Shown piece by piece: positions 34,412-53,291 of a DNA stretch of 64,000 bases. Both the position numbers and the translations under genes were made by a program. The stretch spans positions 1 through 64,000 of the forward strand of contig WYBR01000040.1 of NCBI GenBank assembly GCA_011525805.1. Direction: 5' to 3'. Position 1 is the stretch's first letter. Every line of letters begins with the position of its first letter. This DNA comes from Vicinamibacteraceae bacterium. Its GTDB lineage: Bacteria; Planctomycetota; Phycisphaerae; Phycisphaerales; UBA5793. The notes under the pieces are model-generated. The model was not told the origin of the DNA, did no database searches, and worked only from the letters and a program-made list of their open reading frames with translations.

Positions 34412-35701
34412 ATGGCGATCCATCACCTCCATCTCGTGGGCTTCGACGCCGATGCCGACCTCCTCGCGCGGTGGTGTGCGGCGCTGCCCGCGTGCTGGCC
34501 GGGCGAGTCGCGCCTGGCCGTCGAGGCGTTGAGCGTCGACCAGGCCGTCGCCGCGCTGGACGGCCGGCGAGTCGACGCGTGTCTCTACTTCGTTTCTTCG
34601 CCGACGCTTTCCGCCGCCGCATACCAGTTGCTCGACGCCCTCGACGAGCAGCGCCTCCCGACGATCATCCTTACGCGCGACCGGCGGTTCCTCAGCGCCC
34701 ACGTCTCACCCGAGCAGGCCCTCGTCTGCGACCTCACCGAGCCGATCGAGCGTGTCGCCCTCCGCCTTGAAACGCTGCTCCAGCGGCAGCGGACGGTGGA
34801 GCGCTGCGTCGAGGAACTTCGCGTCGCGCGGCGATGCCAGACCGGCCTGCAGAGCGAAGTCTCGCGCATCCACGACGAGATGCAACTCGCCTCGATGATC
34901 CAGCGCGAGTTCCTTCCCCGCTCGCTGCCCGCGCTCGATGATGTGCGCTTCGGCGTGTTCTACCGCCCCGCCGGATACGTGAGCGGCGACATGTACGACA
35001 TCCGCCGCCTCGATGAGCACACCATCGGCTTTTTCCTCGCCGACGCGGTCGGGCACGGCGTGCCCGCGGCGCTGCTCACGATGGTCATCTCGCGCTGCCT
35101 CACGCTCAAGGTGGTCGGCGAAGTCGATTACCGAATCGTCCCGCCCGGCGAGGTGCTCGGGCGACTCAACGAAGAAATGCTCCGCCTTCAGAGCGCCGGC
35201 GGGCGATTCGCCACGGCCGTCTACGGCGTCATTGACACCCGCACCCACAAGGTCACCATCGCCGGTGCCGGACATCCGCCGCCGCGCCTCATTCAGGAAG
35301 ACGGTGAGTCGCTCGGGCTCGAAACCGACGGCGGGCTCCTCGGCGTCTTCCCGGACGCCGCCTTCAGCGAGATCTCCTTCACCCTCCGCGCCGGCGAGCG
35401 ACTCGTTCTCTTCACCGACGGCTTCGAGACGGCCTTCCCCGACGAATCGACCGCGCGCCGGCAGCGCCGCCTGCCCACCGATCGCTATCTCGACTGCCTC
35501 TCTCGCATCTGCGGCGCCCACGCGATGGTCGACGAGAGCATCGCGCAACTCGGCGTCCTCGTGGATGACCAGTCCGGCTCGCTGCACCAGATCGACGATC
35601 TCACCGCGATCATCGTCCAGTCCGACGCCCCGGCGGGCTGCGTCAGCGTCGCCGCCCCCGCCTCCGTCCGCACTGGCCGCAGCGCCGACCTCGCGGCATA
35701 A
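34412..35701 (+). CDS. SpoIIE-type PP2C serine phosphatase with receiver-like N-terminus
   Basis: A 429-residue regulator. Residues 1-115 look like a degenerate response-regulator receiver, lacking an evident phospho-acceptor aspartate in the usual place. A coiled-coil linker (about 120-160) leads to a PP2C-like phosphatase: MIQREFLPRSLP, the metal site SGDMYD, FFLADAVGHGVPAALLT, GAGHPPP and LFTDGFETAF. Such enzymes (RsbU type) dephosphorylate anti-sigma-antagonists, but no RsbV/RsbW-like gene is nearby. Ribosome site weak. It follows the DUF192 gene by 51 bases, so may be in the same transcript. Confidence 0.87.
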   Translation: MAIHHLHLVGFDADADLLARWCAALPACWPGESRLAVEALSVDQAVAALDGRRVDACLYFVSSPTLSAAAYQLLDALDEQRLPTIILTRDRRFLSAHVSPEQALVCDLTEPIERVALRLETLLQRQRTVERCVEELRVARRCQTGLQSEVSRIHDEMQLASMIQREFLPRSLPALDDVRFGVFYRPAGYVSGDMYDIRRLDEHTIGFFLADAVGHGVPAALLTMVISRCLTLKVVGEVDYRIVPPGEVLGRLNEEMLRLQSAGGRFATAVYGVIDTRTHKVTIAGAGHPPPRLIQEDGESLGLETDGGLLGVFPDAAFSEISFTLRAGERLVLFTDGFETAFPDESTARRQRRLPTDRYLDCLSRICGAHAMVDESIAQLGVLVDDQSGSLHQIDDLTAIIVQSDAPAGCVSVAAPASVRTGRSADLAA

Positions 35702-35877
35702 GGTCGTGTCGCTCGGACTCCTCTGCCGCGTGTGAACTCTGCCGCTCCCGCCCCCTCTGGCCGCATTCGCCGTTGGCCATGCCGGTCTTCTCTTGCACTT
35801 CGCCCCGCCGTCCTGTACACTTGCGTCATGGCGGCGAAAACCATCGCGGGGACGAAGGCAGTCGCGAAGGAGTGCAT

Positions 35878-36153
35878 ATGACCGGACCGACCGCACGAGG
35901 CACGATCGTCGCCGACACGCCCGTCGAACTTGCCGCCCCCTGGTGGACGCGGCGCAAGGTTCTGATCACCTGCGTCACCACCAGCGACCCCGGCGGCGTC
36001 GTCTACGTCGGCGGACCGAGTGTGAGCGCCGACGACGGCTACCCCCTCCGCGCCCGCGACCGACTCCGCCTCGACCTCGCCCCCGACGCCGCACTCTTCG
36101 CGGTCGTGTCCACCGGCACCGCCGACGTGCGCGTTCTGGAGACGAGCGAATGA
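35878..36153 (+). CDS. Small protein of unknown function, 91 residues
   Basis: ATG at 35878 follows AAGGAGTGCAT, a strong ribosome site. The product is soluble and beta-rich: VVYVGGPSVSADDGYPLRAR then DRLRLDLAPDAALFAVVSTG and a final VRVLETSE. The Gly/Asp turns and pattern remind me of short phage or virion-associated proteins, but I cannot name a family. The neighbouring genes do not help. The segment after its stop leads into the accessory block at 36.2 kb. Confidence 0.6.
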   Translation: MTGPTARGTIVADTPVELAAPWWTRRKVLITCVTTSDPGGVVYVGGPSVSADDGYPLRARDRLRLDLAPDAALFAVVSTGTADVRVLETSE

Positions 36154-36194
36154 TGGGGCTGAGTACGGATTTCGGAGTGGGGAATCAGCGTCCT

Positions 36195-36236
36195 ACCTCG
36201 AATTACTGGAAGCCGGTGACGGTCACGCCCGTGGGA
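36195..36236 (-). pseudogene. Degenerate copy of the 3' end of tsf
   Basis: 42 bases match the real tsf 3' end (40223-40264) at 36 positions, in the same orientation. Read on the minus strand they give GVTVTGFQ, a stop, then FEVG, against GVTVTGFQRFEVGR in EF-Ts. The similarity fades beyond about 36240. Confidence 0.75.
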
Positions 36237-36299
36237 GTGCTCACACTTGCGGGCCAATCCGTGGGAGCATGGAATAAACTGGGGCAGTCGCTCGCCAGT

Positions 36300-36785
36300 T
36301 CACCTTCGCCTCCGATACTCGACTCGAAGCAGCCAGAGCAGGCCCCAGGTCATCAAGCCGTTTCGCACGAGACCAAGTGGCGACTTGTCGCCGCCGAGGA
36401 TTGCGTTGCGAACAGCGCCGAAACAGCCGCAGGAAGGCGCCGAAGGGTCGAGCCACAGGCGAACAAGCACGAAAGAGAACACAATCAGCGCGACCAGTGA
36501 AATCCAAAGGGCAACTCGACGACCGACATCAAGCAGCAGGCTCCATCCAAGGGCAGATTCGAGAATGGCCAGCAGGACAGCGAGTACGATAGCGAAGGAC
36601 ATCGAACTGCCCAGCACGTACTGAATGGCGACTGATGTAAACGTAAAGTCCCACGTCTTCCCGGCCGCAGCGGCGAGAAATACGGCGCCCAACGTGAGCA
36701 TGACGCCGCGGGCGGCGAAGCCCTGTCTGCGAACATCGTGCGCGATCGCACCGGTACGCTCGGAGAAGTCAGAGCTCCGCAACAC
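36300..36785 (-). CDS. MauE/DoxX-like membrane protein
   Basis: About 161 residues with four hydrophobic helices (MLTLGAVFLAAAAGKTWDF; a second with FAIVLAVLLAILESALGW; a third VALWISLVALIVFSFVLV; a last one near the C-terminus). Between helices 3 and 4 lies PSCGCFGAV, the CxC pair typical of MauE-type proteins, which are implicated in disulfide formation for methylamine dehydrogenase. I prefer GTG 36785 because GGGAG lies 8 bases upstream; ATG 36701 is the next candidate. The GTG start overlaps the preceding gene's end by 17 bases. It sits two genes from a cysteine-rich exported peptide. Confidence 0.6.
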   Translation of the reverse strand: MLRSSDFSERTGAIAHDVRRQGFAARGVMLTLGAVFLAAAAGKTWDFTFTSVAIQYVLGSSMSFAIVLAVLLAILESALGWSLLLDVGRRVALWISLVALIVFSFVLVRLWLDPSAPSCGCFGAVRNAILGGDKSPLGLVRNGLMTWGLLWLLRVEYRRRR

Positions 36786-37647
36786 TTGAAGCGCTCCCGG
36801 CAGGGCGATTGGACACAAAGAGGTGCTCCACAATCCACCGCGAATCAACAGCGTCCCAGAAGAGCACAATGATCAGGGGGCTGCGCTCCCGATTCGCAAA
36901 CTCCCCGACGAGTCCGACCGTGGCGATCTCCACCTTGCCGAAGCGCGCAATGATGTCCTGTCGACTGTGCCGGAATCGCCACCAAGGGCGACCCATCTTG
37001 ATGGTGCCGCTCTGCCACATCTCGACACCAACAATCGAGTCGGATCCGCGCGGCGGCGCGTCGCCGGGCCATGTCGCTTCATCATCGGGATCGCGTCCGA
37101 GGGTGCTGAACTGAATCACCGCGCCGTCCACTCCCTCGGCGATGGCGATCAGGCGGTTTGTCCCATTGGCGTGGCGCCGGCTTTCGATCCAGAGTGTGTC
37201 GAAGATATCCGTCGTATCCGAATCTGGCGGAAGGTCGGCTCCGAAGTACCATTGCCAGGCGAGCGCGGGCCCGTCAGGACGATTGGCCAATTCTTCAAGC
37301 GCCTGCAGTTCCGCACCGTACGACTCTCGCCATGCGCGGTACGCCGTTGGCGAGTCGGAGGAAAAGGACCAATACAGAAACTCCGACACCGTGTCGAGCA
37401 ATTCCGTTGATTTCCGCGGGTCCGCCGAGGACTCAACCCAGGCGCGGGAGAGTGTGGACCTGATGACATCGGACGGACCGAGCGGCGACATCCCAACGCG
37501 CTCGAACGCCTTCGCGGAGGCTCGCCGTTCCGCCGCGAGGGCATCGGCACGATCCAACCACCTCATGCGGCCGACCACAATCAACGGAATGAGGACCGCG
37601 CACGCCGACAGAACCAGCACATAGACCTGAATTCGTGTATGGCGCAT
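36769..37647 (-). CDS. Membrane-anchored protein of unknown function
   Basis: 292 residues with one hydrophobic N-terminal helix (about 8-27: VYVLVLSACAVLIPLIVVG), then a soluble part presumably outside the membrane. The middle is helical and rich in Trp, Ala and Arg (YWSFSSDSPTAYRAWRESYG). The C-terminal half looks beta-rich and ends in a segment that describes a folded unit (IVLFWDAVDSRWIVEHLFVS). I recognise no family. It lies between the cysteine-rich peptide gene and the MauE-like gene on the same strand, overlapping the latter by 17 bases, so the three probably act together. Confidence 0.6.
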   Translation of the reverse strand: MRHTRIQVYVLVLSACAVLIPLIVVGRMRWLDRADALAAERRASAKAFERVGMSPLGPSDVIRSTLSRAWVESSADPRKSTELLDTVSEFLYWSFSSDSPTAYRAWRESYGAELQALEELANRPDGPALAWQWYFGADLPPDSDTTDIFDTLWIESRRHANGTNRLIAIAEGVDGAVIQFSTLGRDPDDEATWPGDAPPRGSDSIVGVEMWQSGTIKMGRPWWRFRHSRQDIIARFGKVEIATVGLVGEFANRERSPLIIVLFWDAVDSRWIVEHLFVSNRPAGSASSVAEL

Positions 37648-37739
37648 GACACCTCACGGCGGCGGAAGGAGAGGCGACGAACTTCAGCAGCCCCTCGCTG
37701 ATGTTGACCCATGTCGGAGATTCTGGCCGCAGGCATGGT

Positions 37740-38009
37740 CTAGTCACCAACTCCATCGGGGCACGGCCCTCCATTAATCGCAATGCAACCGTCGACAGAA
37801 CAGTAGCATCCAAGCACGCCGTTGAAGGTGCAACAGCAGCCAATAGGCTTCGTGACCGGGCAGGTGCGCGGTGGAAACAAGGAGCAGTAGCCGTCGCAAG
37901 TGACGCCCTCCGACGGATTGAGTCGCGCCCAGGCCGACACGGCGATCGCTGACAGCATCGCACAGGCCGCCATTCCGGTACACACGGAGTCTGAAAGGGT
38001 TCGCTTCAT
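37740..38009 (-). CDS. Exported cysteine-rich peptide
   Basis: 89 residues. ATG 38009 follows AAGGA 8 bases upstream. An N-terminal signal peptide (basic MKRT, then a hydrophobic run ending SAWA) is followed by a mature part of about 60 residues with ten cysteines, including GCCC and GCYC, and Gly/Pro-rich turns: a small disulfide-packed protein. I recognise no family. It is the first of three minus-strand genes, ahead of the anchored unknown protein and the MauE-like protein. An even cysteine count beside a candidate disulfide-handling membrane protein suggests substrate and maturation factor (inference). Confidence 0.6.
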   Translation of the reverse strand: MKRTLSDSVCTGMAACAMLSAIAVSAWARLNPSEGVTCDGYCSLFPPRTCPVTKPIGCCCTFNGVLGCYCSVDGCIAINGGPCPDGVGD

Positions 38010-38057
38010 GTTAGGCATCCTTCGAGCGAGAGTCAAGGTGGAGTCGACGTACGACGC

Positions 38058-38087
38058 TTGACAGCGTCCCCCCCCCCCCCGTACGAT
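38058..38087 (+). promoter_or_regulatory. Sigma-70-type promoter of the prepilin gene with poly-C spacer
   Basis: A perfect -35 TTGACA (38058-38063) and a -10 TACGAT (38082-38087) are separated by 18 bases, 13 of which are an unbroken C tract (38068-38080). The prepilin ATG lies 65 bases past the -10. Slippage in the tract would change the spacer length, a known on/off switch design in other bacteria (for example Neisseria porA). Confidence 0.65.
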
Positions 38088-38332
38088 GTCAAGTCCAGTT
38101 GTCGAAAAGTTGATTGGACCACTTTGCCTGGGTGGCCGAGGATTAGGGCTGATGCCAAGGCGCATGCGGCAACCTCAAGCGTTCACGATGATCGAACTGC
38201 TCGTCGTGATTTCGATCATCTGGCTTCTCGTTTCGATCCTGCTGCCCTCGCTTGCGGCGGCGCGCCACTCTACACGCTACGTTCAGGCGGCGAGCGTGAT
38301 GCGACAGATGTACATGTCTGTGGCATTGTACG

Positions 38333-38362
38333 TGAGGTGGCCCACGAATGGCGGACACAGGG
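38333..38362 (+). repeat. IS left inverted repeat
   Basis: 30 bases beginning TGAGGTGGCCCACGAATGG and ending ACAGGG; exact reverse complement of 39573-39602. Confidence 0.93.
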
Positions 38363-38401
38363 AGTCGTCGGCATAATGGTCGACAGAAAGGACTCCCTGC
38401 C

Positions 38402-38683
38402 ATGGCCAATCCTCGTTACTCCGAACAGTTCAAGCGTGAGGCGGTGCGTCTCGTGACCGAAGAGGGCTACTCGGCCAAGAAGGCCGGCGAGGCCGTCGGC
38501 GTCTGTCACACCACGATCCGGGCCTGGGTCGATCGCTGGGGCGATGAGTCGCCCCGGCGCACGAAGTTCGCCTCCGAGCGGGATGAACTCGAGCATCTGC
38601 GGTCAGAGAATCGACGCCTGCGCCTGGAACGCGACATCCTAAAAAAAGCGACCGCTTTCTTCGCGAAGGAGCAGACCTCGTGA
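38402..38683 (+). CDS. IS3-family transposase OrfA
   Basis: 93 residues. N-terminal helix-turn-helix (YSEQFKREAVRLVTEEGYSA then VGVCHTTIRAWVDRW) that binds the element's ends, followed by a leucine-zipper-like coil (ELEHLRSENRRLRLERDILKK). ATG 38402 follows AAGGA. Near its end the sequence CTAAAAAAAGCG (A7 at 38641-38647) is a -1 frameshift site; slippage there would fuse it to OrfB, which lies in the -1 frame. Its own stop overlaps the OrfB start codon by 4 bases (GTGA). Confidence 0.9.
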   Translation: MANPRYSEQFKREAVRLVTEEGYSAKKAGEAVGVCHTTIRAWVDRWGDESPRRTKFASERDELEHLRSENRRLRLERDILKKATAFFAKEQTS

Positions 38684-39564
38684 GACGCTACCAGTTCATC
38701 GATCAACACCGCGAGCGGTATCCGCTGGCGACTCTGACGCAGACGCTTGAGGTCTCGCGCAGCGGCTTTTACGAGTGGCGGGAGCGGCCGGTTTCCGACC
38801 GGGCCCGGCGTCGCGAGGGTCTGGCCCAACGGGTGCAGGACGTGTTCGCTGAGCACGATGGCATCTACGGCAGCCGGAAGATCGCCAGGGAACTCATCGA
38901 ACGCCAGGTGCAGGTCTGCCGCAACACCGTGGCGGCGCTGATGCGCACGAGGAACCTGCACTCCAAGGCGCAGCGGCGAAGATCGTTCACGGTGACGACG
39001 GATTCGAATCACCTCGAGCCGATCGCGCCCAATGTGCTCGATCGTGACTTTACGGCGACGGGACCGAACGAGAAGTGGGTGGCGGACATCACCTACGTGG
39101 CCACGGACGAGGGCTGGGCGTACCTGGCGGCGGTGATGGACCTGTACTCGCGGCGGATCGTCGGCTGGGCGGTCAGCGATTCCTTGGAAACCTCCCTGGT
39201 GCTCGAGGCGCTCGATCGCGCGATCGAAACCCGGCGGCCGGCGCGTGGCGCCTTGACGCATCACTCCGATCGCGGCTGCCAGTACGCCAGTTCCGACCAT
39301 CGCGCCCGGCTGGCGGAGCAGGGCATCACCTGCAGCATGAGTCGCCGCGGCGACTGCTGGGACAACGCGTGCATGGAGCGGTTCATGAACTCGTACAAGA
39401 ACGAATGGGCGAATCACCGCCGCTATGAGACCGTGAAGGAGGTCCATCACAGCACATTCGAGTACATCGAGATCTTCTACAATCGGAAGCGTCGCCACCA
39501 GACGCTTGGCTATCTCTCCCCGATCGCGTTCGAAGAGAAACATCGCTCAATGAACGCCGCCTGA
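38680..39564 (+). CDS. IS3-family transposase OrfB (DDE integrase catalytic part)
   Basis: 294 residues as written from GTG 38680; in IS3 elements the working transposase is the OrfAB frameshift product. The integrase core shows the DDE residues: first D in WVADITYVA, second D in HHSDRGCQYAS, and E in DNACMERF, with the usual closing YNRKRRHQTLGYLSP. No stop or frameshift interrupts it, so it should be functional. An HTH_21-like region (HDGIYGSRK, in which E precedes the H) lies near residue 60. Confidence 0.92.
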   Translation: MRRYQFIDQHRERYPLATLTQTLEVSRSGFYEWRERPVSDRARRREGLAQRVQDVFAEHDGIYGSRKIARELIERQVQVCRNTVAALMRTRNLHSKAQRRRSFTVTTDSNHLEPIAPNVLDRDFTATGPNEKWVADITYVATDEGWAYLAAVMDLYSRRIVGWAVSDSLETSLVLEALDRAIETRRPARGALTHHSDRGCQYASSDHRARLAEQGITCSMSRRGDCWDNACMERFMNSYKNEWANHRRYETVKEVHHSTFEYIEIFYNRKRRHQTLGYLSPIAFEEKHRSMNAA

Positions 39565-39572
39565 AACCTCGA

Positions 39573-39602
39573 CCCTGTGTCCGCCATTCGTGGGCCACCT
39601 CA
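39573..39602 (+). repeat. IS right inverted repeat
   Basis: 30 bases beginning CCCTGTGTCCGCC and ending CCACCTCA; exact reverse complement of the left end. Confidence 0.93.
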
Positions 39603-40212
39603 ACGGAAGCGACTCACATGGCGCGTTTCCCTACTTTGCGACTCCTCGAGACCCTTTCGGTCCCGTGGTCGTCAACGGAGTCGACCTGCGCCGGGCGCAA
39701 GGACGCTACTACGCGCCTCAGGCTTCCTACTGGCCGTCGCTTTTGCGTCGGTACATCTCAGGTCGTCCGCAGCTTCCCCAACGCGATGCGATGATTCCGG
39801 TCGGCGAGCGATTCGGCCTTTCGCCGGATCGAAACGATGAGGTGCTTTTCACCAGGTTTGAACTCTCCTACACCGTGTTCTCAGCGCCGGAGGAGTGGTA
39901 CGCCGACGAGACTCCGCGGATTCGTTCTTACTACCGGGGAACGAACTGGGACGAGATAAGGTGCCCTTCCCAGAAAGGTCTCCTCGTCGATGTCCATTGG
40001 CTCTCAAGGGAAGTCCTGCGAACTGGGATCCCGACGCTCTCGTTCACGATGGCCGATGGGGCGACCGACCGGATGCGATGGGAAGACATGAAAGACGACC
40101 TGGTGTACCGTCGCGGAGCCGTGACCAACATGCCGGTGATGAACACCCGCTATGGCCTTCATGGGCGTGACCGATAGCCACACTCAACCCAAGCGATTGT
40201 CCGCGCATTCGC

Positions 40213-52483: not shown

Positions 52484-53291
52484 TCAGAACCGGTACGTTC
52501 CGTCATCCCAGGAGCGGCGCTCGATCATGCTGTCATCCTGGATGAGTTCGGCGTGGCTGTCGGTGAAGAGGACGTTGGAGCCCGTCTTGTGGCGGTTCTT
52601 GGAGAGGCGGCGGCCGTTGTCGTAGTGCTCGATGGGCGAGTCGATGTGGAACCCGCGCCAGATGTCGTACCACGCCGCCACGCCGCGGTCGCCGTACGCC
52701 TGCCACGCGCCGCTGTAGTTGTTCTGGTAGAACGCGGCGGAGGCGTCATCGGTGAACTCCGAGAGGTAAATCGTCTGGGAGGGGAAGACGAACTCGGAAT
52801 ACGGAGTCGCGGCCGCGAGATCGTCGCGCGTGCGGCGCCGATCAAACTTGATCCCGTTGTTCACGTACTGGATGAAGTGCTCCTTGCGCGGATGCGAGGG
52901 GCATTTGTAGACGGACCAGTGCTGGAACTTGTCGCCCTGACCACCGCGCTGCATGCGGATGTAGTAGTCGCTCGGCGTCTTGTCGAGGTAAGGACGGAAG
53001 GCGAACGCCCACGGGATGTTCGAGGGCGTGGCGTGCTGCCAGTTTGACCAGCGACGGTCGTAGTAGTGTCCTTCACGCGGCACGAAAGTGCTGTTGTCCT
53101 TCGCGTAGAAGTGAAGCGCGTAGCCGATCTGCTTCATGTTCGACAGGCATGCCGCCCGCCTCGCCCCATCCCGCGCCTGCGAGAGCGCCGGAAGGAGAAG
53201 TCCGATCAGCAGCGCGATGATTGAGATCACCACCAGCAGTTCAATGAGAGTGAATCCTCCCCCCCCCCCGTCGATTCGTGAAGTGCGGCAT
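52484..53291 (-). pseudogene. Prepilin-type protein gene with 11-G frameshift (possibly switchable)
   Basis: Pilin-like protein with [19 protein letters not shown] at its start, the leader cleavage/methylation motif, then a typical extracellular planctomycete pseudopilin domain ending [15 protein letters not shown] 53291 follows AAGGGAG at ideal spacing, but an 11-G tract (53259-53269) between the leader start and the GFTLIE motif puts them in different frames. With 10 G the product would be MPHFTNRR, four glycines, then FTLIE, 268 residues. So it is a true frameshift, a phase-variable state, or a sequencing error. Paralogue of the IS-split gene at 38152. Confidence 0.8.

Follow-up and report, generated by a model that had tools for sequence, protein, structure and literature searches.

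A poly-C tract, apparently shared by two divergent promoters, as a probable phase-variable switch of an exported-protein cassette in Phycisphaerales-type Planctomycetota

A run of 13 C lies between a prepilin gene and a divergent gene for a Cys-rich secreted peptide in the window (the whole stretch of 64,000 nucleotides analysed here), and we read it, with a probability of roughly 0.78, as the shared spacer of two divergent phase-variable promoters that switch jointly and belong to an order-wide set. The tract would serve as a spacer common to two overlapping sigma-70-type promoters, and replication slippage, by gaining or losing C:G pairs, would shift both spacers equally, with a presumed effect on sigma-factor binding. 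Such an equal shift would carry the prepilin gene and the Cys-rich peptide operon, which includes genes for a 292-aa protein and a MauE family protein, up or down together, and this joint switching would be heritable and reversible. A large number of phase-variable poly-C/G promoters would drive an exported-protein cassette in the order, and this tract would belong to one of them. The promoter elements, as read from the sequence, are the following (the divergent -10 is in part a matter of interpretation):

38058-38063, plus strand: TTGACA, -35 of the prepilin promoter
38063-38068, minus strand: GACGCT, weak candidate -10 of the divergent promoter, spacer 18; TACGCT at its counterpart in locus L339
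38068-38080, no strand assigned: C13:G13 tract, the shared spacer
38082-38087, plus strand: TACGAT, -10 of the prepilin promoter, spacer 18
38087-38092, minus strand: TTGACA, divergent -35, with an overlap at the last T of TACGAT

The original prediction had described a TTGACA, 13 C within an 18-base spacer, a TACGAT and a prepilin ATG at 38152, all of which are exact in the sequence, so that a homopolymer of at least 8 bases does lie between -35 and -10 (C13, spacer 18). It had missed the mirrored TTGACA that the right flank (TACGATGTCAA) carries on the other strand (38092-38087, minus strand), the insertion sequence that splits the prepilin gene, and the prepilin leader that holds a second tract. 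Taken together, these elements suggest that two divergent promoters overlap here, with one C:G spacer that seems common to both. Compared with a shared promoter of the Haemophilus influenzae hif type, both -35 elements are present and the minus-strand -10 is weak, GACGCT matching TATAAT at 2 of 6 positions; a base change at 38068 may have lengthened the tract while turning a TACGCT-like -10 into GACGCT.

Runs this long exceed the shuffled expectation by far. Only two C/G runs reach 10 bases (6 matches, against a mean of 0.15 in shuffles), and the same two, C13 at 38068-38080 and another at 53259-53269, are the only tracts of at least 9. When insertion of C13 was simulated at 127,760 window positions on both strands, none gave hexamers scoring 10/12.

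Across 400 genomes of the order, the arrangement TTGACA-poly(C/G)-TANNNT was found about 175 times, against 12 for a backward control. The poly-C form (TTGACA-N0-7-C7-N0-7-TANNNT) accounts for about 50 of these in 40 of the 400 genomes, with 3 in the backward control, and the poly-G form for about 125 in 73 genomes, with 9 in the control. Run lengths extend up to 18, and the median distance from -10 to the start codon is 34 bases. That the pattern is an assembly or sequencing artefact, or a chance homopolymer, is very improbable: most of the genomes do resemble metagenome assemblies and several tracts of the window's genome lie at contig ends (in G000, 7 of 21 C/G runs of at least 9 fall within 900 bases of one), but the window tract lies in the interior of a contig of 207 kb, several tracts occur in G163 and G067, which are assembled as single contigs, and the pattern is enriched over its control.

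The genes downstream of these promoters encode Cys-rich secreted peptides (median 104 aa, with 8.5 Cys after residue 22), prepilins, MauE proteins and members of a family of secreted proteins about 380 aa long. By a heuristic classification, 38% of the genes behind tracts of at least 9 are Cys-rich, 13% are prepilins and 40% are other apparently secreted proteins, compared with 6.6%, 0.5% and 11.5% when the same classifier is applied at random positions. The secreted family of about 380 aa, marked by a GKPDHP motif, was seen repeatedly behind poly-C/G promoters (L312, L315, L321, L322, L332, L398, L401 and others), as were possibly SUMF1-like secreted proteins, judged by eye, at L397, L422 and L309; L397 and L422 have tracts of 9 and 12 and promoters that are 96% identical.

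Tract length also differs between closely similar promoters. Promoter regions that are 95-96% identical over about 340 bp have tracts of 9 and 11 in one pair (G358 and G070) and 9 and 12 in another (G360 and G380), and a further group at 85-89% identity has tracts of 9, 9 and 11; these differences are between genomes of different species at other loci of the set, the window locus having no second copy. Comparable C/G runs precede genes of these kinds in many relatives, so the run in the window is probably a slippage-prone on/off switch. Slippage-driven phase variation in a promoter spacer, as originally proposed, is thus the best reading, favoured by a recurrence far above control, by the secreted or pilin-like nature of the genes behind the tracts and by the length differences between near-identical promoters. 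A companion claim, that a 17-bp spacer would be the strong state here, gains no support. Among long-tract loci, spacers of 16, 17, 18 and 19 occur 26, 5, 14 and 20 times, respectively, such that 17 accounts for 5 of 100 loci. Were 17 simply the best length, its rarity would be unexpected unless most alleles are off; the majority of the alleles that were assembled could be weak ones, or another spacer length could be optimal.

The mirrored form occurs at eight loci, namely the window, G032, two in G205, two in G163, G237 and G372, and in 8 of 8 it separates a prepilin gene from a Cys-rich peptide gene. Complete promoters on each strand were matched by pattern at one G205 site (G205:C13) and at two tandem sites in G163, while at the G032 locus TTGGCA replaces one TTGACA and at G205:C34 the strands of the tract are exchanged. 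Since the -35 of one promoter and the -10 of the other overlap by one base at each end, the spacers are equal on both strands by construction. Divergent prepilin/Cys-rich pairs were found at 21 of 108 tracts of at least 9, as against 0 of 1880 random positions, and at 24 loci when unmirrored loci are counted too. In a sample of 392 genomes from the phylum, the only mirrored pattern found was that of the window; about 30 of these genomes belong to the order, so this negative concerns other Planctomycetota.

Two other accounts of the mirrored sequence have to be considered. The tract might form a phase-variable promoter for the prepilin alone, with the mirrored TTGACA incidental, and both the weak GACGCT on the minus strand and the frequency of one-directional tract promoters elsewhere (TTGACA and TANNNT, the mirrored half being absent in most) would be expected from this; we regard it as unlikely, however, given that eight loci share the mirrored form, always between the same two kinds of gene. 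A lower probability still attaches to the idea that TTGACA...TGTCAA is a regulator's operator, whose spacing or DNA shape, rather than the -35/-10 spacing, is altered by the tract. The repeat is a perfect inverted one and nadA and sabA offer precedents, but most tract promoters lack the mirrored half, so that two promoters suffice to account for the repeat. The mirrored promoters at other loci lend support to the earlier suggestion of an effect on the divergent Cys-rich gene as well, and joint switching from a shared spacer is the reading that we retain.

The genes on either side of the tract in the window are arranged as follows:

36300-36869, minus strand: MauE family membrane protein, cassette gene (PF07291; fused to prepilins elsewhere)
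36769-37647, minus strand: cassette gene for a membrane-anchored protein of 292 aa (structure modelled; 8 further tract loci have homologs)
37740-38009, minus strand: Cys-rich secreted peptide of 89 aa with a signal-like N-terminus
38152-38332, plus strand: 5' part of the prepilin gene, starting at ATG 38152, with an N_methyl motif (Pfam PF07963)
38333-39602, plus strand: IS3-family insertion with 30-bp perfect inverted repeats and target duplication ACG, splitting the prepilin gene
39603-40177, plus strand: 3' part of the prepilin gene, the joined flanks being open for 250 aa

The prepilin scores above the PF07963 cut-off and so carries the N-terminal methylation motif of type IV prepilins and pseudopilins, although no prepilin equivalog model reached its cut-off in the NCBIfam and Pfam profile search. 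The MauE assignment is firm (PF07291 at 60.5 bits, gathering score 27). Neither NCBIfam nor Pfam named a family for the 292-aa or the Cys-rich protein. An AlphaFold model of the former (pLDDT 77) shows a helix at the N-terminus and a domain of the alpha/beta type; a Foldseek search with it returned no match under 0.001, and weak NTF2/cystatin-like structural similarities (best Z 5.4) are too little to name a function. Membership of the 292-aa protein in the GKPDHP family was considered and rejected, as a profile search gave no match.

These four genes make up a recurrent cassette. At 8 other loci a tract promoter is adjoined by a homolog of the 292-aa protein (E 9e-29 to 0.008), with MauE following at several, and the gene order is either colinear with the prepilin last or has the prepilin divergent as in the window. 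At three loci (L405, L413 and L430) MauE and prepilin are fused, both Pfam domains scoring above cut-off. MauE may assist in forming the disulfides of the exported Cys-rich peptide, and the prepilin may be part of the export or display of that peptide.

In two close relatives (KLAP200 and UBA5793) nothing separates tsf from the SpoIIE-type phosphatase gene (34412-35701 in the window), so that the stretch between these genes in the window itself (35.7-40.2 kb, 35700-40210) is lineage-specific. The prepilin has a single close ortholog, in G004 (48%). Conservation of the tract in the genus was discarded: apart from the N_methyl motif, the window DNA finds no counterpart there, and the sole ortholog lacks an upstream tract, a point against our main reading, though this ortholog sits at a contig end beside a transposase fragment. 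The IS3-family element, 1270 bp long, interrupts the prepilin after 60 codons and is single-copy, with a 77% identical copy in G001. With the prepilin split and the divergent -10 weak, the window copy may be decaying, and that switching is still important for this interrupted prepilin is not supported. It is even possible, though we find it doubtful, that the family is real while the tract controls nothing in this strain, a relic left by the insertion in the prepilin and the mutated divergent -10. The perfect ends of the element and GACGCT where TANNNT is expected would fit such a relic, whereas the Cys-rich, 292-aa and MauE frames are intact and the insertion looks recent, since the prepilin frame is open once the element is removed.

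In H. influenzae and Neisseria, coding poly-G/C contingency loci move surface genes in and out of frame, and a similar process appears to act in the window's genus, where tract changes would switch the frames of subtilase and FG-GAP genes; the host phylum here is Planctomycetota, for which no report of phase variation was found in the open-access literature. Of the G000 runs farther from contig ends, several fall within the opening codons of genes for secreted proteins, namely subtilases (PF00082) and FG-GAP proteins, and coding tracts in such genes, 8-15 long, occur also in species G001, G002 and G004. Among 13 loci that could be assessed (3 more, otherwise broken or cut by a contig end, were left out), the tract leaves 4 in frame and puts 9 out of frame, which is near the one third in frame expected from free slippage, and beyond the tract the reading frames stay intact over the whole extent of the locus, some 500 codons for most of them. 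Five G000 coding tracts (L087, L089, L090, L092 and L093) fall in the signal-peptide region, as do those of relatives in G001, G002 and G004, and at L082 (G000:C15:197665-197677) a G13 directly follows ATGCC with no evident gene. The second tract of the window is of the coding type:

53259-53269, minus strand: G11 within the leader of a further prepilin gene, where it takes 10 or 13 G to keep the ATG frame open

With 11 G present, this second prepilin belongs to the loci counted above as out of frame and reads as switched off.

The nearest known parallel to the mirrored promoter comes from H. influenzae, whose divergent genes hifA and hifB are separated by a (TA)n repeat that changes -10/-35 spacing (van Ham 1993, described in PMC2651432). 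According to that description, these too are divergent pilus genes that a repeat between them can switch together, the repeat being (TA)9-11 instead of a C:G homopolymer. The hif genes belong to chaperone-usher fimbriae, are unrelated to the prepilin and Cys-rich peptide genes and come from another phylum, and no hifA pilin with hifB chaperone was found in the window, whose genes encode an N_methyl prepilin, a Cys-rich peptide and MauE. In Neisseria meningitidis opc, porA and fetA, a homopolymer lies between -10 and -35 as it does here (PMC2791445), and a change from 11 to 12 C raises Opc expression (PMC3447861); those promoters are one-directional and drive outer membrane proteins in a different phylum.

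We consider it fairly likely that a whole order of Planctomycetota switches an undescribed export cassette by poly-C/G slippage, often in mirrored divergent promoters, which would constitute a large contingency system outside host-adapted bacteria, the group in which, to our knowledge, contingency loci have mostly been described. In Phycisphaerales-type Planctomycetota, well over 100 poly-C/G promoters precede genes for Cys-rich exported peptides, for prepilins and for further secreted proteins, which suggests bet-hedging against phages, grazers or rivals. The MauE-prepilin fusion, which joins a disulfide-related membrane protein to a pilin-like protein, marks out the cassette for study, and the mirrored promoter would tie two genes to one tract.
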